A DNA stretch of 64,000 nt from Sphingopyxis microcysteis (GTDB lineage Bacteria; Pseudomonadota; Alphaproteobacteria; Sphingomonadales; Sphingomonadaceae). Both the position numbers and the translations under genes were made by a program. Every line of letters starts with the position of its first letter. Position 1 is the first letter of the stretch. This document shows, one piece after another, positions 15,594 to 28,439 of this stretch. Location of the stretch: the NCBI RefSeq assembly GCF_012274265.1, contig NZ_JAANYY010000002.1:1240001-1304000 (forward strand), given 5' to 3'. A model generated the notes under the pieces. The model was not told the DNA's origin and made no database searches. It saw only the letters and a list, made by a program, of their open reading frames with translations.

Positions 15594-16169
15594 TCAGCAG
15601 CCCTCCTTCACGATTTTCGGCAGCGCCGCCTTCGCCGGGTCGGCACGAAACGCCGCCCCGGGATTGTACATGCGCAGGGTCAGCTGGAACGGTTCGCCCT
15701 TGACCCCGGGCAACCACGCCGCGTCGGCGGGTTTGTCAGGCGAAATGACGACGCGCCACGCGCCATCGGCATCGAGCGCGACGTTGGCGCCGTTGACCGA
15801 CCAGACCCCCGCCGGATTATCGACCAGATAGCCCGTGTCGTTATAGACCGTCACGCTCCACCACCGCGCATCGAGCGGGGTACCCGACAGGCTGTAGCGA
15901 CAATTGCCGTCGAGCGGCGCGCCGCTCGCGTCGGTTTTCGCCATCCAGTAGATCGTTTCCCTGGCGGGCAGAGCGAGCAGCCCCGAGCGCGCGACCATCG
16001 CGCGCGTCAGCGGATCGGTCGCCTTGGTCCCATAGCCAAGCGAAGTCGTCCACGGGCCGTTCCTGATCGCGCCGTCGCCAAGGCCGCCGTTGGTGAGCGC
16101 CCAGGCTGCGCCGAGCCCCACCGCCAACCCGGCTAACAGGGTGATCGAATAGCGGTGCCAGCTTTTCAT
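15594..16169 (-). CDS. DUF1214 domain-containing membrane-anchored protein
   Basis: A 191-aa protein with an N-terminal signal anchor (ITLLAGLAVGLGAAWALT). The DUF1214 region includes ETIYWMAKTDASGAPLDGNC, RWWSVTVYNDTGYLVDNPAG and FQLTLRMYNPG. ATG 16169 follows GGGGGAA; an in-frame GTG lies two codons upstream. It is the first gene of a two-gene unit with the DUF1254 protein, and together they reconstitute the domains of the usual fused protein. No catalytic residues can be assigned. Confidence 0.82.
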   Translation of the reverse strand: MKSWHRYSITLLAGLAVGLGAAWALTNGGLGDGAIRNGPWTTSLGYGTKATDPLTRAMVARSGLLALPARETIYWMAKTDASGAPLDGNCRYSLSGTPLDARWWSVTVYNDTGYLVDNPAGVWSVNGANVALDADGAWRVVISPDKPADAAWLPGVKGEPFQLTLRMYNPGAAFRADPAKAALPKIVKEGC

Positions 16170-16182
16170 GTGCACGTTCCCC

Positions 16183-16260
16183 CGTCGCCCCCGCGAAGGC
16201 GGGGGCCGCTGGCAGCGTTACGCAAGGTTGATAGCGCCCCCGCCTTCGCGGGGGCGACGA
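16183..16260. repeat. Palindromic intergenic repeat, family B, copy 2
   Basis: The arms CGTCGCCCCCGCGAAGGCGG and CCGCCTTCGCGGGGGCGACG are near-perfect inverses around a variable 30-odd base centre. It sits between the start of the DUF1214 gene and the end of ppdK, both leftward. Confidence 0.9.
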
Positions 16261-18924
16261 TCATTTCGCCTTCAGCGCCGCCTGCGCTGCCGCCAGACGT
16301 GCGATCGGCACACGGTAAGGCGAGGCGCTGACATAGTCGAGGCCGGTTTTTTCGCAGAAATGAATGCTCGGCGCGTCGCCGCCATGTTCGCCGCAGATGC
16401 CGAGCTTGACGTTCGAGCGCGTCGCCCGGCCGCGATCGGCCGCGATCTCGATAAGCTGCCCGACGCCCTCGACATCAAGGCTGACGAACGGGTCGGTCAG
16501 GAAGATGCCCTTGTCGACATATTGCGTCAGGAAGCGGCCAGCGTCGTCGCGGCTGATGCCGATCGTCGTCTGGGTAAGATCGTTGGTACCGAAGGAAAAG
16601 AATTCGGCGCTCTCGGCGATCTCGCCCGCCATCAGCGCGGCGCGCGGCAGTTCGATCATCGTCCCGACGAGATAGGCGATCTCACGCCCCTTTTCGGCGA
16701 ACACCGCCTTGGCCTGCGCGTCGACGACCGCCTTCATGAGGTCGAATTCGCGGCGCGTCGCGACGAGCGGGATCATCACCTCGGGGATCGGCGCGGCGCC
16801 GGTTTCGGCGGCGACGTCACACGCCGCCTCGAAGATCGCGCGCGCCTGCATCTCATAGATTTCAGGATAGGTGACACCCAGACGACAACCGCGATGCCCG
16901 AGCATCGGGTTGAACTCGTGCAGCTCGTTCGCGCGCGCCTTGAGCGCCTCGATCCCCACCCCCGCTGCAGCGGCGACATCGGCGAAATCTTCCTCGCGCG
17001 TCGGCAGGAATTCGTGCAGCGGCGGGTCGAGCAGGCGAATCGTCACGGGCAGGCCCGCCATCACGCCGAAGATCGCGGCAAAATCGCCGCGCTGTTCGGG
17101 GAGCAATTTCGCGAGCGCCGCGCGGCGGCCCTCCTCGCTGTCGGCGAGGATCATCTCGCGCACCGCCGTGATCCGCGCGGCGTCAAAGAACATATGTTCG
17201 GTGCGGCAGAGCCCGATGCCCTCGGCACCGAAATCGCGCGCGACCTGGGCGTCCGCCGGGGTTTCGGCGTTGGCGCGCACCTTCATGCGGCGCACCTTGT
17301 CGGCCCACCCCATCAGGGTGCCGAAATCGCCGACGAGTTCGGGCAGGAGCGTCGGAACCTCGCCCGCCATCACCTCGCCGGTCGAACCGTCGAGGGTGAG
17401 GATGTCGCCTTCGCGCAGTTCGCGCCCGCCGACGCGCAGCACGCGCGCATGGCCGTCAATCGACAGCCCGCCCGCGCCCGAGACGCACGGACGTCCCATC
17501 CCGCGCGCGACCACCGCCGCATGGCTCGTCATCCCGCCGCGCGCGGTCAAAATGCCCTTCGCGGCGTGCATGCCGTGGATGTCCTCGGGCGAAGTTTCGA
17601 CGCGGACGAGGATCACCGCCTCGCCCATTTCCGCCGCCTTTTCCGCATCATCGGCGGTGAACATGATCTTGCCCGACGCCGCGCCGGGGCTGGCAGGCAG
17701 CCCCTTGGTCAGCACGTCGCGCGGCGCCTTCGGATCGAGCGTCGGGTGGAGAAGCTGGTCGAGCGCGCCCGGATCGACGCGGCCGACGGCTTCCTCTTCC
17801 GAAATCAGCCCCTCAGCCGCCATTTCGACTGCGATGCGCAGCGCCGCCTTCGCGGTGCGCTTGCCCGACCGCGTTTGCAACATCCACAGCGTCCCGCGTT
17901 CGACGGTGAACTCAATGTCCTGCATGTCGCGATAATGGGTTTCGAGCGTGTCGAAGACGCGGCCGAGCTCCTCGAACGTCTCCGGCATCGCCTCTTCCAT
18001 CGACAGCGGCTTGGCACCGGCCTTTTCGCGCGCTTGTCGGGTCAGATATTGCGGGGTGCGGATGCCCGCGACGACGTCCTCGCCCTGCGCATTGATCAGC
18101 CATTCGCCGTACCAGGCGCGCTCGCCGGTCGCCGGATCGCGCGTGAACGCGACGCCGGTTGCCGAGGTGTCGCCCATATTGCCGAACACCATCGCCTGCA
18201 CATTGACCGCGGTGCCCCATTCGCCGGGGATCGAATTGAGGCGGCGATAGACTTTCGCGCGGTCGCTTTCCCAGCTCGCGAACACCGCGCCGACCGCGCC
18301 CCACAGCTGGTCGCTCGGTTCCTGCGGGAACGGCGCGCCGGTCTCGCGCTCGACGATCGCCTGATATTGCTTGACCAGCGCCTGCCAGTCTTCGGCCGAC
18401 ATTTCGGTATCGAGATAGAAGCCCTTGTCTTCCTTTGCGATTTCCAGCGCTTCCTCGAACTCGGCATGGTCGAGCCCCATGACGACGTCGGCGTACATCT
18501 GGACGAAGCGGCGATAGCTGTCCCACGCAAAGCGCGGATCGCCCGACGCTTCGGCAAGGCCAACGACGGTCTGGTCGTTGAGCCCGAGGTTGAGAACGGT
18601 GTCCATCATCCCAGGCATCGACACGCGCGCGCCCGAGCGGACCGAAACCAGCAGCGGGTCGGCGGCGTCGCCGAAGCGCTTGCCGGTAATCCCCTCGATA
18701 TGCGCGATGCCCGCGGCGACATCCTCGACGAGGCCCGCCGGATATTGCTCGCCATTGGCGTAATATGCGGTGCAGACGTCGGTGGTGATCGTAAAGCCCG
18801 GGGGCACCGGCAGGCCGATCGAGGCCATTTCGGCGAGGTTCGACCCCTTGCCACCCAGCAATTCCTTCGAACGCTCGGCCGTCGTGGCCGCGCCGCCGAA
18901 CAAATGCACCATCTTCGTCATCAT
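16261..18924 (-). CDS. ppdK: Pyruvate, phosphate dikinase
   Basis: Interconverts pyruvate + ATP + Pi and PEP + AMP + PPi, linking glycolysis, gluconeogenesis and amino-acid carbon. The 887-aa length is normal. The N-terminal ATP-grasp part starts GGKGSNLAEMASIGLPVPPG (residues ~25-45). The phosphohistidine domain has GGMTSHAAVVARGMGRPCVS (catalytic His near 455). The C-terminal TIM barrel has GIGLCRTEHMFF, RLLDPPLHEFLP and, near 830, GICGEHGGDAPSI with the proton-donor Cys. ATG 18924 directly follows a weak GGAGC-type site. No PDRP-type regulator is nearby. An equally long reading frame on the other strand is an antisense shadow. Confidence 0.97.
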   Translation of the reverse strand: MMTKMVHLFGGAATTAERSKELLGGKGSNLAEMASIGLPVPPGFTITTDVCTAYYANGEQYPAGLVEDVAAGIAHIEGITGKRFGDAADPLLVSVRSGARVSMPGMMDTVLNLGLNDQTVVGLAEASGDPRFAWDSYRRFVQMYADVVMGLDHAEFEEALEIAKEDKGFYLDTEMSAEDWQALVKQYQAIVERETGAPFPQEPSDQLWGAVGAVFASWESDRAKVYRRLNSIPGEWGTAVNVQAMVFGNMGDTSATGVAFTRDPATGERAWYGEWLINAQGEDVVAGIRTPQYLTRQAREKAGAKPLSMEEAMPETFEELGRVFDTLETHYRDMQDIEFTVERGTLWMLQTRSGKRTAKAALRIAVEMAAEGLISEEEAVGRVDPGALDQLLHPTLDPKAPRDVLTKGLPASPGAASGKIMFTADDAEKAAEMGEAVILVRVETSPEDIHGMHAAKGILTARGGMTSHAAVVARGMGRPCVSGAGGLSIDGHARVLRVGGRELREGDILTLDGSTGEVMAGEVPTLLPELVGDFGTLMGWADKVRRMKVRANAETPADAQVARDFGAEGIGLCRTEHMFFDAARITAVREMILADSEEGRRAALAKLLPEQRGDFAAIFGVMAGLPVTIRLLDPPLHEFLPTREEDFADVAAAAGVGIEALKARANELHEFNPMLGHRGCRLGVTYPEIYEMQARAIFEAACDVAAETGAAPIPEVMIPLVATRREFDLMKAVVDAQAKAVFAEKGREIAYLVGTMIELPRAALMAGEIAESAEFFSFGTNDLTQTTIGISRDDAGRFLTQYVDKGIFLTDPFVSLDVEGVGQLIEIAADRGRATRSNVKLGICGEHGGDAPSIHFCEKTGLDYVSASPYRVPIARLAAAQAALKAK

Positions 18925-19033
18925 ATGCTCCTGCTGCCCCGGGGAGGAGGTTGCGGCTGGATAGGGTTGAGAAGTCCTGTCGTCGATTCAGATTTACTTC
19001 GCGCGATATAAGAAGCGGCGCATAGCCGCAGCG

Positions 19034-21184
19034 TCAGCCCTCGATCTTCGAAAAATCGGCCACGCCATGCACCGCGCCGGTAAATCGGGCGAGCAGGCCG
19101 AGGCGATAGGCGCGGACCGCTTCGTCGGCGTCGTTGACCATCACGCCGTCGAAAAAGGCGTCGATCGGGGCGCGAAGCGACGCAAGCGCAGCCATGGCGT
19201 CGGTGAAACGCTCCTCGGCGACGGCGGTAGAGGCTGCGGGTTCGGCGGTGTCGAGCGCTGCAAGCAAGGCGGCGTCCGCGTCGGTCGGCGGCGTTGCAGC
19301 GCCGTTGCCGCTCACCTCGCCCGCCTGCTTCAGGATGTTCGCCGCGCGCTTGTAGCCCGCCAGCAGATTGGTGCCGTCTTCGGTCGCCAAGAATGCTTGC
19401 AAATCGCGAGCGCGAGTTTCCGTGCGATCAAGCCGAGTGTCATCTCGACTGTTCCATTCGCGCGAAGCTTGCACCACATCTGCCGGCACGCCAGTTTCAC
19501 GCAATTGAACTGCCAAACGCTCCGTCAAGAAGTCCGGAATCGTTGTCAGAATTTTGCGATCGGCGATCTGCTTTTCGCTCAATCGGGCAGTCGGATCGCT
19601 TTGGCCAAGCCATTGCGTCGCAGCAGCGTCAGTCGACAGCTTCAGCCCGTTTTGCAAAATTAGACGCAGGGAAGAAATGCCTGCACGCCTGAGAGCGAAC
19701 GGGTCCTTCGATCCTGTCGGGAACATATCTTCACGGAAGAAACCAAAAAGCGTATCCAGCTTATCCGCCAACGCCACAGCCACCGTCACCGGCGCCGTCG
19801 GCACGTCATCACCCTGCCCGACCGGCTTGTAATGGTCGCGGATCGCGTCGGCGACGGCGTCGGGCAGGCCTTCGGCGCGGGCGTAGTAGCCGCCCATCAG
19901 GCCTTGGAGTTCGGGGAATTCGCCGACCATCTCGGTAACGAGATCGGCCTTTGCCAGTCGCGCGGCGAGTTCGGCTTGGTCGGCCAATTCAGCCGTCGCC
20001 CCCGCGGAGGCGGGGGCCGTTGTCGTCGGTGCACTACCTCCAGCGGCCCCCGCATTCGCGGGGGCGACGATCCCCTCTTCGACCAGCCACCGTGCAAGCT
20101 TCGCGACGCGCTCGACCTTGTCGGCGACGGTGCCGAGCTTTTCGTGGAAGGTGATGTTCTTGAGCTTCTCGGCGTGCTGCTCGAGTGTCTTCTTCTGATC
20201 CTGTTCCCAGAAGAAGCGTGCGTCGGACAGGCGCGCCGCGAGCACCTTGCGGTTGCCCGCGACGATCTCCGCGCCGCCGTCCTTCGCGTCGATGTTCGCT
20301 GTGCAGACGAAGCCGTTGGCGAGCTTGCCGCCCGCACCGTTCACGACGAAATATTTCTGGTTCACGCGCGCGGTGAGCTGGATGACCTCGGGCGGCACTT
20401 CGAGGAAGGCTTCGTCGAAACGGCCGAGCAGCGGCACCGGCCATTCGGTGAGCCCGGCATTCTCGATCACCAGCCCCTCGTCCTCGACGAGGCTCAGCCC
20501 CGCATCGGCCGCGGCCTTGGCGGCACCGTCGCGGATTATCGCCTGTCGTTCCTCATGGTCGACGATGACGTGGCAGGCGCGCAGCTTCTCGGCGTAATCA
20601 GATGCCGATCCGATGGTGATCTCGCCCGGGCAGTGGAAGCGATGGCCGCGCGTCGCGAAACCCGCAGAAATCCCGCTAACTTTACACTGAATCAGATCTT
20701 CGCCGAAGATCGCAACGATACCAGACAGCGGGCGCACCCAGCGCAGGCTTTCGCTGCTCGCGCTTTCCTTGCCCCAGCGCATCGACTTGGGCCAGGCGAA
20801 GGCGCGGACGATCGCGGGGATCGCCTCGGCCAGGACGTCGGCGGTCGCGCGGCCAGGCTTGTCGATCACCGCGAAATACACTCCGTCGCGATCCTCGAGC
20901 TGGTCCTGCGTCAGCCCGGTCTTGCGCAGGAAACCTTCGAGCGCCTGCGGCGGCGCGCTGCTGCGCGGGCCCTTGAGTTCCTCGCTGACCGCCGCGGTCG
21001 CTTCGGGCAGGTCGCGCGCGATCAGGGTAAGGCGGCGCGGGGTCGACCAGATGGTAAGTTCGCCCGCCTCGATGCCCGCGGCCGACATCTGCGCCCGAAA
21101 CAGCTTTTCCAGTTCGGCGCGCGCACCGGCCTGCATCCGCGCCGGGATTTCCTCGCTGCGCAGTTCGAGAAGAAAGTCGGTCAC
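19034..21184 (-). CDS. glyS: Glycine--tRNA ligase beta subunit, with a translated palindromic repeat
   Basis: Beta subunit of the bacterial alpha2beta2 glycyl-tRNA synthetase; it binds tRNA-Gly. 716 aa from the GTG at 21184, chosen because GGAGG lies seven bases upstream and the family N-terminus TDFLLELRSEEIPARM follows. FATRGHRFHCPG, GLTEWPVPLLGRFDEAFL and VTVAVALADKLDTLFGFF (HD-like domain) are typical. Residues ~372-397 (IVAPANAGAAGG... to ASAGAT) are not part of the family alignment as I know it. They are encoded by a family B repeat at 19994-20070, inserted between the conserved VERVAKLARWLVEEG and LVTEMVGEFPELQGLMGGYY. The frame is kept throughout. Confidence 0.96.
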   Translation of the reverse strand: MTDFLLELRSEEIPARMQAGARAELEKLFRAQMSAAGIEAGELTIWSTPRRLTLIARDLPEATAAVSEELKGPRSSAPPQALEGFLRKTGLTQDQLEDRDGVYFAVIDKPGRATADVLAEAIPAIVRAFAWPKSMRWGKESASSESLRWVRPLSGIVAIFGEDLIQCKVSGISAGFATRGHRFHCPGEITIGSASDYAEKLRACHVIVDHEERQAIIRDGAAKAAADAGLSLVEDEGLVIENAGLTEWPVPLLGRFDEAFLEVPPEVIQLTARVNQKYFVVNGAGGKLANGFVCTANIDAKDGGAEIVAGNRKVLAARLSDARFFWEQDQKKTLEQHAEKLKNITFHEKLGTVADKVERVAKLARWLVEEGIVAPANAGAAGGSAPTTTAPASAGATAELADQAELAARLAKADLVTEMVGEFPELQGLMGGYYARAEGLPDAVADAIRDHYKPVGQGDDVPTAPVTVAVALADKLDTLFGFFREDMFPTGSKDPFALRRAGISSLRLILQNGLKLSTDAAATQWLGQSDPTARLSEKQIADRKILTTIPDFLTERLAVQLRETGVPADVVQASREWNSRDDTRLDRTETRARDLQAFLATEDGTNLLAGYKRAANILKQAGEVSGNGAATPPTDADAALLAALDTAEPAASTAVAEERFTDAMAALASLRAPIDAFFDGVMVNDADEAVRAYRLGLLARFTGAVHGVADFSKIEG
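19994..20070. repeat. Palindromic repeat, family B, copy 3, inside the glyS coding sequence
   Basis: Seventy-seven bases with arms CGTCGCCCCCGCGGAGGCGG and CCGCATTCGCGGGGGCGACG, matching the intergenic copy at 16183-16260 in both arms while the centre differs. It is read in frame as an Ala/Gly/Thr/Pro-rich stretch of about 25 residues within GlyS. See findings. Confidence 0.9.
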
Positions 21185-21209
21185 AGCAAATCCTCCGAAC
21201 CCCAAACCC

Positions 21210-21290
21210 CGTTCGCATCGAGCGAAGTCGAGATGCCCCGGAGGATGGCGCTAGACCGCTGCGTGTCTCGACTTCGCTCGACACGAACGG
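21210..21290. repeat. Palindromic intergenic repeat, family A, copy 4 (between glyQ and glyS)
   Basis: Left arm CGTTCGCATCGAGCGAAGTC, right arm GACTTCGCTCGACACGAACG. It occupies the 115-base gap between the two subunit genes of glycyl-tRNA synthetase, which are usually nearly contiguous. Confidence 0.88.
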
Positions 21291-21320
21291 AGAAGGAGGC
21301 GGCGAAACAACGATAGGCCA

Positions 21321-22244
21321 TCACAGCGTCCATCCCGGATATTTTTCGGTCCAGCGTTCGGACTGGCTGTCGATCCACGCCTTGCAGCTGCCCTTCGCCA
21401 GGTCGCGGACGCGCGCCATATAGTTGGCGCGTTCCTGCACGCTGATGACGCCGCGCGCCTGAAGTAGGTTGAAGAGGTGGCTCGCCTCGATCGCTTGGTC
21501 ATAGGCCGCCAGCGGCACCCCCGCTTCGATCGCGCGGTTGCATTCGGCCTCGGCCGCCTTGAACCCCGCGAACAGGCTGTCGGTATCGGCGACCTCGAAA
21601 TTCCATTTCGAGAACTGGCGTTCGTTCTCCAGAAACACATCGCCATAGCTCACCGCGGCGACATCGCCGACCGCGTCGGAAAAGCGCAAATCGTACACAT
21701 TGTCGACATTCTGGATATACATCGCCAGCCGTTCGAGCCCGTAGGTCAGCTCGCCCGCGACGGGCTTGCAATCGAAGCCGCCCATTTGCTGGAAATAGGT
21801 GAACTGGGTGACTTCCATCCCGTCGCACCAGACTTCCCAGCCCAGCCCCCACGCGCCGAGCGTCGGCGATTCCCAGTCGTCCTCGACGAAGCGGATGTCG
21901 TGGAGCAGCGGGTCGATGCCGATTGCGGCGAGCGAGCCGAGATACTGCTCCTGCAGGTCGGCGGGCGACGGCTTCAGGATGACCTGATACTGGTAATAAT
22001 GCTGGAGGCGGTTCGGGTTCTCGCCATAGCGGCCGTCGGTCGGGCGGCGGCTCGGCTGGACATAAGCGACGTTCCACGGTTCGGGGCCGAGGCTGCGCAG
22101 CGTGGTCGCGGGGTGGAATGTCCCTGCCCCGACGCGCATGTCATAAGGCTGCAGGATCGCGCAGCCGCGCGCGCTCCAATAATTGTGGAGCGTCAGGATC
22201 ATGTCCTGAAAGCTTAAGGGTTTCGTCTCCGCCGCGTCGGCCAC
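21321..22244 (-). CDS. glyQ: Glycine--tRNA ligase alpha subunit
   Basis: Catalytic alpha subunit of the alpha2beta2 glycyl-tRNA synthetase, which activates glycine. 307 aa from a GTG at 22244. Family signatures run from [20 protein letters not shown] through [40 protein letters not shown] and [20 protein letters not shown] to [20 protein letters not shown]. It is upstream of glyS on the same strand. The 210-base upstream region (22245-22454) is shared with a divergent XRE regulator; no T-box or riboswitch-like structure is evident. Confidence 0.96.
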
Positions 22245-22376
22245 TATCCGCTCTTTCGCAGGTGCAACAACTGCTGCCGCCCTTGGCGCAGCGGGGTCGC
22301 AGGGTCAAGGGCGAGGGGCGCGCGGATGTCGGCGAAAGTGCCGCTTAATGCGACATCCGACGGCAAATGTAAGGTC

Positions 22377-22435
22377 TTGTTGACACAGTCAGCGAATCAT
22401 ATCATTTAGTCAACAACACCTGACATACGGTCAGG
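22377..22435 (+). promoter_or_regulatory. Promoter with dyad operators upstream of the XRE gene
   Basis: TTGACA at 22380-22385 is a consensus -35 box, with a weak -10 (CATTTA, 22403-22408) seventeen bases on. It is embedded in the dyad TTGTTGAC (22377-22384) / GTCAACAA (22409-22416). A second perfect dyad, CCTGAC-N5-GTCAGG (22419-22435), lies just downstream. TGAC/GTCA half-sites recur, as expected for sites of an autoregulating HTH dimer. Confidence 0.5.
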
Positions 22436-22454
22436 GACGCATGACGGATTGCCG

Positions 22455-22670
22455 ATGAACAACCAGTTGAAGGTGCTGCGCGCGATGCGGAACTGGAGCC
22501 AGGCCGAACTGGCCGACCGGCTCGACGTATCGCGGCAGGCGGTCAACGCGATCGAAACCGGGAAATACGATCCGTCGCTGCCGCTCGCATTCAAGCTGGC
22601 GCGCCTGTTCGCGATGCCGATCGAGGAAATTTTCGACGATGGCCATGAGGGACAAGATGATGGACATTGA
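22455..22670 (+). CDS. XRE-family HTH transcriptional regulator (short, YozG/Cro-like)
   Basis: A 71-aa single-domain regulator. The helix-turn-helix is MRNWSQAELADRLDVSRQAV followed by NAIETGKYDPSLPLAFKLAR, typical of the short XRE proteins that pair with a membrane protein. ATG 22455 is preferred to the TTG two codons earlier. It overlaps the next gene, and the two form a unit common in bacteria (small repressor plus multipass membrane protein). Dyads at 22377-22435 probably include its operator. Confidence 0.9.
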   Translation: MNNQLKVLRAMRNWSQAELADRLDVSRQAVNAIETGKYDPSLPLAFKLARLFAMPIEEIFDDGHEGQDDGH

Positions 22671-23277
22671 ACCGCAAAAGCGCCGCGCGCCCAGCATGGT
22701 CTGGCCGATCGCGATCGGCCTAGGCACCGCGATGCTGGCGGGCGGCTTTGCCGGTTACAATCAATCAGCAGCCGAAAATGGCGATGCCGTGCTGGCACCC
22801 TGGATCGGTCCCGTCGTCGCGATTCTGATCGGCGGCCTGGCACTGGCCTATTACGTCCGCCGTTATGCCGACTGGTTCCGCAACTGGTCGCCGCGCAAGC
22901 GCCTGTACTGGGTCAGCCTGACCTTGTCGTGTGCGCTGGGCTTCGTCGCGGCCATGGTGATGCAATCGGGGACGAGCGGACCCGAGGGATTGTTCAGCAA
23001 TGCCGCAATGACCCCGACGGTTGCGATCGGCCTGTCGGTGATGTGGGTGGTCGGTCTGACGATCGCGCTGGTCCTCTATCACCGCACGGTCGATGACCAT
23101 GAACGGCGGGCCTATCATCTGGGCGGGCTTGCCGGCTTTTACGCCTTTGTTTTCCCCTGCCCCGTCTGGTGGGTGCTGTGGCGCGCCGATCTGGCGCCCC
23201 CGGTCGAGGCGATGCCGCTGTTCGCCCTGTCGCTGGCCGCCAATGCACTATTCTATTTCTGGTTCAAGTTTCGCTGA
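22657..23277 (+). CDS. Multipass membrane protein paired with the XRE regulator
   Basis: About 206 aa with roughly six hydrophobic segments, including VWPIAIGLGTAMLAGGFAGY, VVAILIGGLALAYYV, WVSLTLSCALGFVAAMVM, VAIGLSVMWVVGLTIALVL and AMPLFALSLAANALFYFWF. A cytoplasmic KR-rich loop has RRYADWFRNWSPRKR. The start is uncertain: ATGs at 22639, 22645, 22657 and 22660 are in frame, and GAGGGA at 22647-22652 favours 22657 or 22660. It overlaps the regulator gene by about 14 bases. No enzymatic motif is seen. Confidence 0.8.
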   Translation: MMDIEPQKRRAPSMVWPIAIGLGTAMLAGGFAGYNQSAAENGDAVLAPWIGPVVAILIGGLALAYYVRRYADWFRNWSPRKRLYWVSLTLSCALGFVAAMVMQSGTSGPEGLFSNAAMTPTVAIGLSVMWVVGLTIALVLYHRTVDDHERRAYHLGGLAGFYAFVFPCPVWWVLWRADLAPPVEAMPLFALSLAANALFYFWFKFR

Positions 23278-23326
23278 CCTTTTTCGCTCTCCCCTTCCCC
23301 ATCACATCCGGCCATAAGGGCCAATA

Positions 23327-24289
23327 ATGAAAGGATATTCCCCCGTGAAAAAATGGTTCAAGACGCTCGCCGCTACCTGCGCCGTCATCCCCTTCGCGCA
23401 ATGCGCCGTGCTGCCCGGCGGCAATGTCGCCATCGCCGCCGAACCCGCGCCGGTTGCCGCCGCCGCGACCGCGCTGACCGATGCCGACCCCGCGCTGTGG
23501 GTGGTCAAGGATGAGGACACGACGATCTATCTGTTCGGCACCGTCCATGTGCTGAAGCCCGGCCTCAGCTGGTTCGACGAAGCGGTGAAGGACGCGTTCG
23601 ACAAATCGGACGAGATGATGCTGGAAATCGTCATGCCCGAGGACCAGAATGCGGTCGCCAGGACGATGATGCCGCTGGCGATGGACCAGAGCGGCAAGAC
23701 CATCCCGTCGCGCCTGACCGCCGACCAGCTCAAGGCTTATCAGGCGGCGATCGTCAGTGTCGGCCTGCCTGCCAATGCGTTCGACAATTTCGAGCCTTGG
23801 TTTCCGGCGATGACGCTGTCGGTGCTGCCGCTGACCAAGCTTGGCTACGACCCCGAACAGGGGGCCGAAAAGCTGCTCACCAAATTTGCCAAGGCCGATG
23901 CGAAGCCGGTATCGGGCCTCGAAACGCTCGAAGAACAGCTCGGCTTCTTCGACCAGCTGCCCGACGCCCAGCAGGTCGCATTCCTGAATACCGTGGTCCG
24001 AGATATGGATAAGCTGGGGCCGATGCTCGACAAGATGGTCGCGCTGTGGACCAAGGGCGATCCCGACGGGCTGGCGGTCGCGATGAACGAAAGCATGGCG
24101 GCGACCCCCGAACTCGCCAAGACGCTGCTCTATGATCGCAACGCGCGCTGGGCCGACCAGATCAAGACGCGATTGGACAAGCCGGGCACCGTGTTCATCG
24201 CGGTCGGCGCGGGACATCTGGCGGGCGAAAAGAGCGTGCAGGATTATCTGAAGGCACAGGGGCTGACCGCGACGCGGGTCGAATATTGA
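23327..24289 (+). CDS. TraB/GumN family protein (copy 1), exported
   Basis: A 320-aa member of the TraB/PrgY/GumN superfamily, which has a tiki-like fold related to metal-dependent EreA-like hydrolases. The N-terminus has a signal peptide (KTLAATCAVIPFAQCAVLPG). Diagnostic motifs are TIYLFGTVHVLKPGLSWFD (GxxH) near residues 65-85, SDEMMLEI, and near the end VFIAVGAGHLAGEKSVQDYL (second GxxH). ATG 23327 follows AAGGG. The next gene is a paralogue overlapping by four bases, so the pair may function together in the envelope. The substrate is unknown. Confidence 0.88.
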   Translation: MKGYSPVKKWFKTLAATCAVIPFAQCAVLPGGNVAIAAEPAPVAAAATALTDADPALWVVKDEDTTIYLFGTVHVLKPGLSWFDEAVKDAFDKSDEMMLEIVMPEDQNAVARTMMPLAMDQSGKTIPSRLTADQLKAYQAAIVSVGLPANAFDNFEPWFPAMTLSVLPLTKLGYDPEQGAEKLLTKFAKADAKPVSGLETLEEQLGFFDQLPDAQQVAFLNTVVRDMDKLGPMLDKMVALWTKGDPDGLAVAMNESMAATPELAKTLLYDRNARWADQIKTRLDKPGTVFIAVGAGHLAGEKSVQDYLKAQGLTATRVEY

Positions 24290-25185
24290 GCCCTGCCGCG
24301 CCTCTGTCCCGACATTGGGGTCGCCGCGTTGCGGCGGCCCTTTTGCCGTTGCTGCTGGCGGGGTGTGGCTCGCCCGATCCGGCGCCGAAGGCAAAGCCTG
24401 CAATGTGGCTGGTCGCGGATGCCGATACCCGAATTTACATGCTCGGCACGATGCACGCCCTGCCGCGCGGGACCGACTGGGATGACGGCGCGGTCGGGCG
24501 AGCGATTGCGTCGGCCGACGAGCTGATCATGGAATTATCGCCGCGCGAACTGGCAGCGGCGGCCGCCATGTTCCAGACGCTGGCACCGCGCGCCGCGCCC
24601 CTGCCGATCGAAGCGCGGCTTTCCGGCGTGGCGCTCGCCCGCTACCGCGCGCTCGAAGCGAGCGGCGGTTCGTTCGGCGGCGAAGAACTCGACGATTGGG
24701 CGATCATGATCCTGATCGGACAGCGCGCCGCGCGCGCCGCCGACCTGACGCCCGCCGCGGGGGTCGAAAAGGGACTGACCGAAATTTTCGCAGCCGCGAA
24801 CAAGCCGATCCGCGGGCTGGAATCGGCGCAGAGCCAGCTGATGCTGTTCGAAAATCTCGATGCATCGACCCAGCGCGCCTTGCTGTCCCGCGCCACCACC
24901 GGCGCGGACGAGGCGGTTGGCAAGATCGGCGCGCTGACCGCCGCGTGGAGTAGCGGCGACGTCGATGGGCTTGAACAGATGATCAACGCCGACGTCGATA
25001 CCGTCCCCGCGGCACGCAAGGCGATTATCACCGACCGCAACCGGCGCTGGGCGGCCTGGGTGAAACGTCGGATGGCGCAGCCGGGCACGGTGCTGATGGC
25101 GGTCGGCACCGGGCATCTGGTGGGAGCGGATGGTGTCCCGGCGATGCTGGCGGCGGAGGGGATGACGGTGACGCGGGTGCAGTGA
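24286..25185 (+). CDS. TraB/GumN family lipoprotein (copy 2)
   Basis: A 299-aa paralogue of the preceding protein. It probably starts at TTG 24286, overlapping the upstream stop as TTGA. This start yields a lipoprotein signal VAAALLPLLLAGCGSP (lipobox LAGC, Cys near residue 27). Family motifs are repeated: RIYMLGTMHALPRGTDWDD, ADELIMELS, GLESAQSQLMLFENLD and VLMAVGTGHLVGADGVPAML. Both copies keep the two GxxH motifs. One copy is thus predicted soluble periplasmic and the other membrane-tethered. Confidence 0.85.
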   Translation: MSPAAPLSRHWGRRVAAALLPLLLAGCGSPDPAPKAKPAMWLVADADTRIYMLGTMHALPRGTDWDDGAVGRAIASADELIMELSPRELAAAAAMFQTLAPRAAPLPIEARLSGVALARYRALEASGGSFGGEELDDWAIMILIGQRAARAADLTPAAGVEKGLTEIFAAANKPIRGLESAQSQLMLFENLDASTQRALLSRATTGADEAVGKIGALTAAWSSGDVDGLEQMINADVDTVPAARKAIITDRNRRWAAWVKRRMAQPGTVLMAVGTGHLVGADGVPAMLAAEGMTVTRVQ

Positions 25186-25281
25186 GTCGACGGAGTTCCC
25201 GGATATATTGGGGGTGGAACGCGAACATCACCTGACGCTCGCACAACTTAGCAAATTCAGCAACGAAGGTGCCGTTACCAA

Positions 25282-25761
25282 TTAGTCGGCGGCACACGAA
25301 TCAAAGGCAAATGACCCTCGCTCAAGAAGCCGCCAAAGCTCATCTGCCCGACGAGCCACAATGATGTTATCGCTCTCGAACTGGAAAATCCACACAGCCC
25401 AATATCTCTTTTCTGAATATTTCCGCTCAAGCGTCGCTAGATATATTGGAGATGTTACATCGATTTCCAGGACCGCTATGTTTCTGATTGTAAGCGGATC
25501 ACGGTCGGTTAGCTTTGTACCCACATCGAAAGATGCAAAAAATGCTGGAGCGTTGGTTGTCGAGACTTGACCAATCTCGTTGGCGAAGATTTGTATTGTG
25601 GAGATTTTCGTTAGGTCATGTCTATTCACGGCGTTTACAAATCTTTGTATTGAGCAGCGGGCTTGAGAAGCGTCATGGGGAGGCGGCGGGAGCGGCGCCT
25701 CCGCGTTGACCGCTGATGCGGCGAACAACAGTGCCGAGGCGATAATCTTTGATTTCCTCAC
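25282..25761 (-). CDS. Orphan secreted protein of unknown function, lower GC
   Basis: About 159 aa from GTG 25761 (TTG 25764 is also possible). The signal peptide [19 protein letters not shown] is followed by EAPLPPPP. The mature part starts [20 protein letters not shown], a pattern that recalls NTF2/SnoaL-like proteins (hydrophobic helix, Asn-x-His/Gly-Asp), but no fold can be assigned with certainty. One Cys near each end of the mature chain could form a disulfide. Base composition is visibly more AT-rich than the neighbours, with runs such as TTAGATATATTGG on the complementary strand. That suggests later acquisition or relaxed selection. Confidence 0.6.
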
Positions 25762-25967
25762 CAATCGTACTTCCCAGCCACCGCGCAGATGAAATTGACT
25801 ATGACATGGCGCGGTCATATCCACAATTGATCGCTAGCCGCCATTGCGAAAGCCCCTACCCCTCCTGCGCTTGCATTTCCCGCGCTTCCCCGCTAAGCGC
25901 CGCCGCTTCCGTCCATGGTCATCCCTGGAGGCGTGGCGGACTGTGTAATCTGTTTCGGAGAAAAATG

Positions 25968-26600
25968 ATGAGCGACCAGCTGGTGCTGTCGGCCGAGACG
26001 CGTGATCGGGGAGGCAAGGGAGCCTCGCGTGAACTGCGTCGCAAAGGCCGCGTCCCCGCCGTTGTCTATGGCGGCAAAGAAGAACCCCTGATGATCCACG
26101 TCGAAGAAAAGCTGCTGATGAAGCAGCTGATGACGGGTCACTTCATGAACTCGGTCGTCATGATCGACGTCGGCGGCAAGCAAATCCGCACGCTGCCCAA
26201 GGACGTCGCATTTCATCCGGTCAAGGATCGCCCGATCCACGCCGACTTCCTGCGCATCAGCAAGGATGCCAAGGTCCAGGTCGCCGTTCCGGTCGCGTTC
26301 CAGAACGAAGAAGCCTCGCCGGGCCTGAAGCGCGGCGGCGTGCTGAACATCGTTCGCCACGAACTCGAACTCGTCTGTGACGCGGACAAGATCCCCGACG
26401 ACATCGCGATCGACGTCACCGGTTTCGACGTTGGCGATTCGATCCACATCAGCCACGTTACGCTGCCCAAGGGCGTGGAAAGCGCGATCACCGATCGCGA
26501 CTTCACCATCGCCACCATCGTTGCCCCGTCGGCGCTGAAGTCCAGCGACGGCGACACGACGAAGGATGACGGTGAAGCTGCCGAAGGCAGCGAAGCCTAA
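25968..26600 (+). CDS. rplY: 50S ribosomal protein L25/general stress protein Ctc
   Basis: Binds 5S rRNA in the 50S subunit. It is 210 aa, so it is the long TL5/Ctc form with a C-terminal domain rather than the short E. coli form. The N-terminal part has [20 protein letters not shown] and [19 protein letters not shown], and the C-terminal domain has [18 protein letters not shown] and [20 protein letters not shown]. The acidic tail ([14 protein letters not shown]) is typical. ATG 25968 is placed seven bases after GGAG; the overlapping ATG 25965 is the alternative. It is followed by a terminator-like hairpin and pth, a conserved gene order. Confidence 0.96.
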
Positions 26601-26611
26601 GCATTCGGATG

Positions 26612-26636
26612 CGCCCCTCCCCTTACGGGAGGGGCG
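26612..26636 (+). terminator. Hairpin between rplY and pth
   Basis: A perfect 10-bp stem, CGCCCCTCCC against GGGAGGGGCG, with a five-base loop CTTAC, followed by TTTCC. The short T-run suggests partial termination, which would set a higher dose of L25 than of Pth. Confidence 0.6.
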
Positions 26637-26665
26637 TTTCCATCGGACCCGGGAAAGGCAGTATG

Positions 26666-27235
26666 ATGCAGCTCTGGGTCGGCCTCGGCAATCCAGGGCC
26701 TCAATATGCGATGCACCGCCACAATGTCGGCTTCATGGCCGCCGACGTCATCGCCGACGTTCATGGCTTTGCCGCACCTGCAAAGAAATTCCAGGGCTGG
26801 ATTCAGGAAGGCCGCATCGGATCGCAGCGCATCCTGCTGCTCAAACCCGGCACTTTCATGAACGAAAGCGGCCGCAGCGTGCGCGCCGCGCTCGATTTCT
26901 ACAAGCTGACCGCGCCGGACGTCACCGTCTTTTACGACGAGCTCGACCTTGCCCCGATGCAGGTGAAGGTCAAACGCGGCGGTGGCGCAGCGGGCCACAA
27001 TGGCATCCGCAGCATAATCCAGCATATCGGCGAGGATTTCCGCCGCATCCGCATCGGCATCGGCCATCCGGGGCACAAGGACCGCGTGACCGGCCATGTG
27101 CTGGGCAATTATCACAAGAGCGAGATGGAGCCGCTGATCGACCTGCTCGGCGCGATTGCCGCGGAGGCAAAATGGCTCGCCGAGGGCGACGATGTGCGCT
27201 TCGCCAGCGACCTTGCCTTGCGCTTGCAGGGATGA
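26666..27235 (+). CDS. pth: Peptidyl-tRNA hydrolase
   Basis: Releases tRNA from prematurely dropped peptidyl-tRNA by cleaving the ester bond. 189 aa, normal length. Motifs are LWVGLGNPGPQYAMHRHNVG (Asn and catalytic His near residue 20), LLLKPGTFMNESGRS, VFYDELDLAPMQVKVKRGGG (Asp) and AGHNGIRSIIQHIG. AAGG lies seven bases upstream of ATG 26666 and four upstream of ATG 26663. It sits next to rplY as in many bacteria. Confidence 0.97.
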   Translation: MQLWVGLGNPGPQYAMHRHNVGFMAADVIADVHGFAAPAKKFQGWIQEGRIGSQRILLLKPGTFMNESGRSVRAALDFYKLTAPDVTVFYDELDLAPMQVKVKRGGGAAGHNGIRSIIQHIGEDFRRIRIGIGHPGHKDRVTGHVLGNYHKSEMEPLIDLLGAIAAEAKWLAEGDDVRFASDLALRLQG

Positions 27236-27265
27236 AGGGGGGCGCTGGAACCGACCGGAAGTCCC

Positions 27266-27355
27266 CGTCGCCCCGCGAAGGCGGGGGCCGCTGTCGGTTT
27301 ACGCAGCCCTGCAGGAATAGACGGCTAGCGCCCCCCGCCTCCGCGGGGGCGACGG
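27266..27355. repeat. Palindromic intergenic repeat, family B, copy 4
   Basis: Left arm CGTCGCCCCGCGAAGGCGGG, right arm CCCGCCTCCGCGGGGGCGAC; the centre is longer than in other copies. It lies between pth and the SDR gene. Confidence 0.88.
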
Positions 27356-27443
27356 TATAGTGGAACGGCAGCTTCCCACCCCAACGCAGAAATTTGGCGC
27401 GGCGCACCAACTGAGGCATGATGGCGCTCCAAAGGAGAGTCCG

Positions 27444-28439
27444 ATGCCCGATCCAATTCTTCCCAACCGCCGCCAACTCATCGCCGGTGCCGCAGCGCTT
27501 ACCGCCACCGCCCCCGCGCTGCTGCATGCCGCGACCCCGACCGCGGCGCCTTCGCTGAAAGGTCGCACGATCCTGATCACCGGCGCTTCGAGCGGGTTCG
27601 GCCGCGTGGGTGCGCTTTATTATGCCAAGCTGGGCGCCAAGGTCATCGCGACGATGCGCGGACTGCCGCGGCCCGAGGCGGAAACGCTCGCCGCCGAGGC
27701 CGCGAAGGACAAGCTCGACCTGCATATCGTCGAGATCGACGTGACCAGCGATGCGTCGGTCGCCGCGGGGACCGCCGAGGCGCTGAAAATCGCGGGCGGA
27801 CGCATCGACACGCTGATCAACAATGCCGGGATCGGCATCACCGGGCCGGTCGAAGTACAGGATATGGCCGCGACGCAGCTGATCTTCGACACCAATGTCC
27901 TTGGCATCCAGCGCATGCAGCTGGCGTTGCTGCCCCAGATGCGCGCCGCGAAAAGCGGGCAGATCTTCAACATCTCGTCGCAGCTCGGGCGCGTCATCGT
28001 TCCCGGCGGCGGTCATTATTCGGCGACGAAGTTCGCGGTCGAGGCGATGTCCGAACAGCTGGCCTATGAACTGGTCCCGCACGGCATCGACGTGACGGTG
28101 ATCCAGCCCGGCGGCTATCCGACCAAGGTGTGGGTCAATCGCAACGCCTATACCGGCGCGCTGAAGGCCCGCAGCGACGCGGCGCTGCTCGATGCCTATG
28201 CGCCCTTCACCCGGGGGATGGGGACCGAGGATGGCAGCGGGCGCAGCGCCGATCCGCTCGACGTGCCGCGCGCGATTGCCGAGATCATGGCGATGCCCGC
28301 GGGCAAGCGCCCGCTGCGCCGCGCGGTCCATCCGGGCAACAAGCCGCAGGAAGCGATCAATCGCGTGTCGGCCGAAGTTCAGCTGGCATGGCTGGGCGGC
28401 GGGGCGCTGGGGCCGCTGGTCAAGGCGGTGCACGACTGA
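27444..28439 (+). CDS. Short-chain dehydrogenase/reductase with a Tat-type signal
   Basis: A 331-aa classical SDR. The cofactor site is TILITGASSGFGRVGALYYA, the NNAG motif is LINNAGIGITGP, the catalytic Ser is in IFNISSQLGR and the Tyr-Lys pair is in GGHYSATKFAVEAM. Ahead of the domain are about 45 residues with NRRQLIAGAAALTATAPALLHAA, which looks like a twin-arginine leader. That is unusual because SDRs are normally cytoplasmic; Tat export would allow it to carry its nucleotide folded. AAAGGAGAG precedes ATG 27444. The substrate is unknown. Confidence 0.85.
   Translation: MPDPILPNRRQLIAGAAALTATAPALLHAATPTAAPSLKGRTILITGASSGFGRVGALYYAKLGAKVIATMRGLPRPEAETLAAEAAKDKLDLHIVEIDVTSDASVAAGTAEALKIAGGRIDTLINNAGIGITGPVEVQDMAATQLIFDTNVLGIQRMQLALLPQMRAAKSGQIFNISSQLGRVIVPGGGHYSATKFAVEAMSEQLAYELVPHGIDVTVIQPGGYPTKVWVNRNAYTGALKARSDAALLDAYAPFTRGMGTEDGSGRSADPLDVPRAIAEIMAMPAGKRPLRRAVHPGNKPQEAINRVSAEVQLAWLGGGALGPLVKAVHD

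Follow-up and report, generated by a model that had tools for sequence, protein, structure and literature searches.

The gene glyS, encoding the glycyl-tRNA synthetase beta subunit, lies on the minus strand at 19034-21205 of the window (the whole 64,000-nucleotide stretch of Sphingopyxis microcysteis DNA that was analysed). Its product is recognised as GlyS by Pfam (PF02092, E 6.5e-179) and has 723 residues counting from a TTG at 21205, although we think the GTG at 21184 the likelier start. A palindromic element occupies 19994-20069 (no strand assigned) and the glyS frame is open throughout it. The preliminary description had recognised this element and its passage in frame as about 25 residues near 372-397, but allotted it 77 bases (19994-20070) where we count 76. 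The encoded segment (VAPANAGAAGGSAPTTTAPASAGAT) consists of 25 Ala/Pro/Gly/Thr-rich residues, 380-404 counting from the TTG and 373-397 from the GTG, and the first C of the element ends an Ile codon. Judged from the sequence, the repeat would be translated in frame as part of GlyS. As mRNA, arms and spacer together have a folding energy of -59.4 kcal/mol compared with -35.8 for shuffles (z -7.2), and ribosomes must therefore unwind a strong hairpin; window positions 15900-27500 contain no match to a known structured RNA at gathering score. A separate palindrome in the glyQ-glyS gap, also pointed out earlier, is real (21209-21290, arms 92% complementary) and of the GTCGAG type; such palindromes are also present inside the GlyS of L034 and L050.

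The element is a 24-nt palindrome present twice in inverted, head-to-head orientation. The first arm (19994-20017, plus strand) comprises CGTC, an 8-bp stem and a 4-nt loop, the second (20046-20069) is inverted on the minus strand, each has one mismatch to the commonest arm, and a 28-nt spacer without assigned strand (20018-20045) separates them. CGTC-tagged REPs, as described in the accessible part of Di Nocera et al. 2013 (PMC3733652), are high-copy alphaproteobacterial repeats forming head-to-head dimers, with A-T 'almost invariably' at the first two stem positions and a 3-nt tail that is most often CCA. Like these, the glyS element has an unpaired CGTC at one end of the arm (CGTCGCCCCCGCGNNGGCGGGGGC), a stem of 8 bp (GCCCCCGC/GCGGGGGC; 8-9 bp expected) with a 4-nt loop (4-5 nt expected), and a high-copy family in which head-to-head dimers predominate (56 clean pairs; 59 stretches of its own genome plus the window). 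Unlike them, its stem starts with G-C, and the tail is mostly CGC or CGT. Because of the G-C start, where A-T is almost invariably expected, we call the element a CGTC-tagged, REP-like variant rather than a filed member of CGTC-1.

A likeness to Rickettsia palindromic elements (RPEs) had been proposed. RPEs lie in frame in conserved genes and are presumably translated, according to the accessible portions of PMC3733652, PMC10969869 and PMC2229807, and in this in-frame behaviour within a conserved gene the comparison holds. By structure it does not: RPEs, compared by description only, are given in those portions as about 105-150 bp, whereas the glyS element is a 76-nt dimer of two separate REP arms. 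In R. conorii, CGTC-1 corresponds to RPE-6 and CGTC-4 to RPE-4 according to Di Nocera et al. (PMC3733652, accessible part). In pairing two inverted REPs about a spacer at high copy the glyS element also resembles REPINs, but it carries CGTC in place of GTAG, which distinguishes it from the REPIN/RAYT system. REPINs are built in just this way, from two inverted REPs and a spacer, are abundant and have a GTAG tag. A resident RAYT is rejected as the mobiliser, since the window's genome has no match to PF01797 (Y1_Tnp), the one model searched. Only 15 of the 80 genus genomes have a Y1_Tnp match, and G071, with 233 arms, has none. This scarcity agrees with the published view, so far as the accessible text of PMC3733652 goes, that no dedicated transposase is known for CGTC REPs.

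The two intergenic copies named in the preliminary description share the arms of the glyS element. One spans 77 nt (16183-16259) and the other 27266-27354, neither with an assigned strand; only the right arm of the latter scores because its left arm is one C short. Allowing up to three mismatches, the window contains five arm matches (none in 100 shuffles) and the genome 153 (77 forward, 76 reverse; a reversed-pattern control gives one), and the surroundings of 100 listed genomic places show mostly head-to-head pairs. Lengths of the 56 clean pairs in its own genome are 90 nt (35 pairs), 78 nt (11), 91 nt (five), 77 nt (two), 76 nt (two) and 88 nt (one). Both arms have identical loop bases in 44 of the 56 (shuffled mean 28.3, maximum 40), from which we infer that the REP-dimer family has recently been copied as a unit. 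The same genome also carries a second dispersed palindrome, of the GTCATCCCAGCGAANGCTGGGATC type, for which 141 arms match when up to two mismatches are allowed.

A broader pattern is seen when glyS is compared across relatives, using 80 loci of named genomes (the best 80 of 589) together with 80 genomes of the window's genus, of which 79 have a glyS match, 78 are readable at the position of the insert (site 1, the codon position after EGIV) and 76 at a second position in the C-terminal region (site 2, after NILKQA). The preliminary description supposed a short linker here in E. coli; E. coli GlyS has no insert at site 1, running directly from WIAEQIGADVN to HATRAGLLSKCDL. Repeat-derived inserts fill site 1 in 26 of 78 same-genus genes and, among the best 80 of 589 loci, in 24 of 50 genes from other sphingomonads and in 0 of 26 from the remaining alphaproteobacteria. 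Site 2 (19280-19321, minus strand, residues about 629-642) is empty in the window, and six types account for inserts there in 44 of 76 same-genus genes; outside the genus it is filled in at least 11 of 50, a set parsed in part. Among the 76 same-genus genes, 48 have at least one site filled and 28 have none; both sites are occupied in 21, and in 11 of those by a single type. These counts omit L003, L004 and L051 (on the same contigs as L183, L182 and L166), L075 (cut) and L220, and at site 2 L178 and L196 (cut); they score as empty four longer linkers without a recognised repeat (L156, L160, L193 and L204), and class L022, L044 and L053 as sphingomonad by GlyS likeness, against their record titles. 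L053 bears the title 'Arthrobacter' and is probably a mislabelled or contaminated assembly.

The contents of site 1 comprise twelve arm types and one untyped palindrome, assigned by arm matches and in a few cases by eye from the DNA, with L031 matching type H only at three mismatches and L219 holding the untyped palindrome (O). Types A, B, C, I and L are variants of one REP plan; others, CCTCCC-rich or GTCGAG palindromes, look unrelated in sequence, so that several kinds are present even under conservative grouping. The insert in L219 is tandemly repeated on its palindrome, which is GGGACTGTCCC-like. In L045 and L053 similar leader residues (GGSNHSSATNS, GGGSNPSSAINS) stand ahead of different repeats, which suggests that one repeat replaced another. 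Five of the arm types are found in 72, 77, 70, 72 and 76 of the 80 same-genus genomes, with arm numbers per genome ranging from one to 233 (per strand, the reversed patterns match 0 or 1 times). The 15 genomes whose glyS contains own-type arms have a median of 65 such arms compared with 23.5 in the 64 others (p 0.0006, uncorrected for kinship). G005 has a single D-type arm genome-wide, the one in glyS, and inserts can therefore outlast their family.

The insert position falls in the HD domain of GlyS, given for E. coli as residues 341-540 in the accessible part of PMC8464048, shortly before the degenerate HD doublet Ser393-Lys394. In an AlphaFold model built from 69 sequences (mean pLDDT 90.9), which agrees with solved GlyS structures, model residues 370-393 (add 7 for full numbering) form a low-confidence coil, with block pLDDT of 71, 52 and 87, flanked by well-predicted helices at 353-369 and 394-410. 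Site 2 (model 622-634) is likewise coil, and further low-confidence stretches occur at 145-149 and 492-494. The structural mapping called for in the preliminary description thus places the insert, by prediction, in a flexible loop between conserved helices. Elsewhere in GlyS, between NGLRL and DFFADRLKVQ (window 19511-19669, residues about 513-565), is a hypervariable segment that ranges in length from a few residues to about 100, shows little likeness between genomes of the genus and lacks obvious repeats; only L143, L144 and L209 share the version found in the window, together with the low-GC sequence around it.

A search for other reading frames carrying the arms, also proposed in the preliminary description, yields one in the window's genome. 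The closest genomic copy of the glyS element (C1:1404441-1404516, 76 nt, 92% identical) supplies the C-terminal tail of a regulator of the SUF system (TIGR02944). This gene is L111:247-723, the last residues of which are REP-encoded, as they are in L248 and L252. Among 65 surveyed elements, which hold 123 of the 153 arms (the other 30 being outside the survey), a coding-like frame runs into two, glyS and the regulator tail. Both have 76 nt, and among the 56 clean pairs those coding are 2 of 2 of this length versus 0 of 54 of other lengths. The survey rule also flags the opposite strand of glyS, an artefact of antisense codon bias, and a stricter rule requiring coding-like codon GC on both sides, which is blind to tails, flags 0 of 65, glyS included.

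Searching the genus with C1:1404441-1404516 gives 30 loci, 14 of them belonging to the 76-nt type (73-76 nt). Seven of the 14 lie at glyS site 2, three in the tail of the SUF regulator, two in pyruvate dehydrogenase E1 beta, one in ligA and one in L249, which has open frames without a Pfam match and is left out of the coding count. With glyS site 1, the coding places of this type across the genus number five. The rule flags nine of these 14 loci and misses four of the 13 known coding copies (L253, L256, L271 and L272, assigned to glyS site 2 by peptide); it flags 0 of the remaining 16, which are 78 nt long except for one of 75 nt, and can overlook coding copies among them. The contrast is biased, the 30 loci having been picked by likeness to a coding copy. 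In the NAD-dependent DNA ligase (ligA, L254:977-3073) the adenylation domain is split by the REP-encoded segment, and in the two E1 beta loci (L261:439-1866 and L264:463-1875, minus strands), which have lipoyl and transketolase domains, the segment lies in the lipoyl linker. The coding bias of the 76-nt form could reflect shared descent or selection for frame or peptide. We entertain, tentatively and at well below even odds, the idea that sphingomonads carry a coding-adapted 76-nt REP subfamily, two bases under the common 78-nt form and with a spacer reading about AAGxSAPTTTAPAFAGAT, which passes in frame between genes, and that the two GlyS loops are standing landing places in which unrelated palindromes succeed each other; if true, mobile palindromes supply and renew protein loops of an essential enzyme.

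Single insertions of this kind, a REP inside a gene, are known. CGTC REPs have intragenic copies, among them some in tRNA synthetase genes of S. alaskensis and E. litoralis, and the accessible part of PMC3733652 reports different REPs at about the same site only in recB of two Xanthomonas; the S. alaskensis synthetase may be glyS. Here, by contrast, two sites of GlyS are filled in dozens of genomes, and neither such repeated filling nor the 76-nt form in genes was found in print, supplementary files excepted. The best reading is that GlyS has loops in which different repeats settle repeatedly, an unusual form of the REP inside a gene.

Several points are established from sequence: a dispersed family, an open frame, nearest relatives that are empty, two sites filled by many palindromic types across sphingomonads, an unfilled neighbour, ppdK, and a loop that is predicted to be flexible. 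We favour, at a probability of roughly 0.65, a scenario in which a REP dimer copy came to lie in the HD loop of GlyS, glyS has been refilled repeatedly by active families, filled and empty alleles have been spread by recombination, and the insert is near-neutral. Some activity would scatter repeats over the genome, insertions at most coding positions would be lost, and a few loops would tolerate them. The gene glyS would then be filled, turned over and refilled by whichever repeat family was active, while allele recombination would spread the filled and empty versions. Surviving copies would be those read in a way that yields small and largely neutral residues and, for the family of the glyS element, would mostly have the 76-nt length. 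The insert is most likely near-neutral for the enzyme, and such inserts are probably tolerated rather than useful.

Counting against this scenario, the jumping is not seen directly. The earlier suggestion that the repeat can move into genes is supported by its dispersal, its open frame and its absence from the nearest relatives, the glyS of L143, L144 and L209 lacking the residues in alignment; repeat-free close relatives with the same 25 or so residues, which would have pointed to chance, were not seen. No clean empty site defining the insertion point was found among the nearest empty relatives, because these have another flank. Over most of its length the window's glyS shares 84-100% identity with L143, L144 and L209, but this drops to 79-84% across residues 345-377, a stretch in which its closest matches (92-95%) are the filled L174, L175, L155 and L180. 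An R precedes the conserved W in 26 of 26 filled same-genus genes versus 3 of 42 parsed empty ones, and near-identical inserts occur in distant branches of the tree. A flank shared in this way is better explained by alleles that were inherited or recombined than by numerous new insertions, and the mosaic at residues 345-377 makes recombination of glyS alleles part of the story; the window's insert, with a flank unlike that of its nearest relatives, may thus have arrived on a recombined segment. Identity to L143 and L209 also falls at residues 120-180 (to 76% and 73%), and exchange therefore extends beyond the insert. A stronger form of the argument, that a few old insertions made the filled alleles and interspecies homologous exchange then shuffled them, the window's included, draws on these same observations. 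We nevertheless consider it unlikely as the whole account, since exchange alone does not explain why different repeats sit within one flank type (B in L174 and L175, G in L155, C in L180 and A in the window), nor the twelve types and one untyped palindrome at site 1. On a FastTree tree of 126 GlyS sequences (variable columns removed, many weak forks), insert type changes at least 46 times at each site, a least number of state changes and not of insertions, and occupancy 36 and 29 times.

The repeated filling of one gene, in a single reading frame, could also mean selection, with a loop that alters GlyS activity, stability or expression (through the mRNA hairpin) or allows inhibitor escape, and repeats as its raw material. 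The adjoining and longer ppdK (887 aa) is a full-length, unbroken single match in 73 of 80 genomes and cut or fragmented in G034, G043, G044, G048, G065, G073 and G075 (several at contig ends; G048 also with one internal TGA), and no insert of comparable size was seen in this one control gene across the 80 genomes, whereas in many species glyS carries repeats at two sites. All 62 parsed inserts with CGTC-type arms, which are not independent of one another, have at least one arm whose reading is PAxAG, although the first arm of L163 has a different one. The strong hairpin and the hypervariable segment elsewhere in GlyS would also suit selection. Against this, the sequence, length and type of the insert vary freely, the 28 same-genus genes empty at both sites do without one, and the frame bias is non-independent through shared descent; we regard selection as improbable. 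Still less credible is a target preference, by which repeats would insert at a sequence or structure present at both glyS sites. Several CGTC-type left ends do coincide, their CGTC overlapping the Ile-Val codons ATCGTC, but this codon pair is commonplace in genes rich in GC, and non-CGTC palindromes occupy the same site. That a low-complexity linker resembles the repeats by chance, as the low complexity of the encoded peptide might have suggested, is rejected by the shuffles, by 92% identity over 76 nt to a genomic copy and by the paired inverted arms.

Repeated filling of the GlyS loops by different repeats remains our preferred reading. REPs inside genes have so far been known as scattered cases, and two sites of one essential enzyme, refilled across an order, provide a testable system for protein segments made from palindromes, with natural filled, empty and differently filled glyS alleles available as test material. 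The GlyS sites also offer a handle on how CGTC-type repeats, without a known transposase, move.
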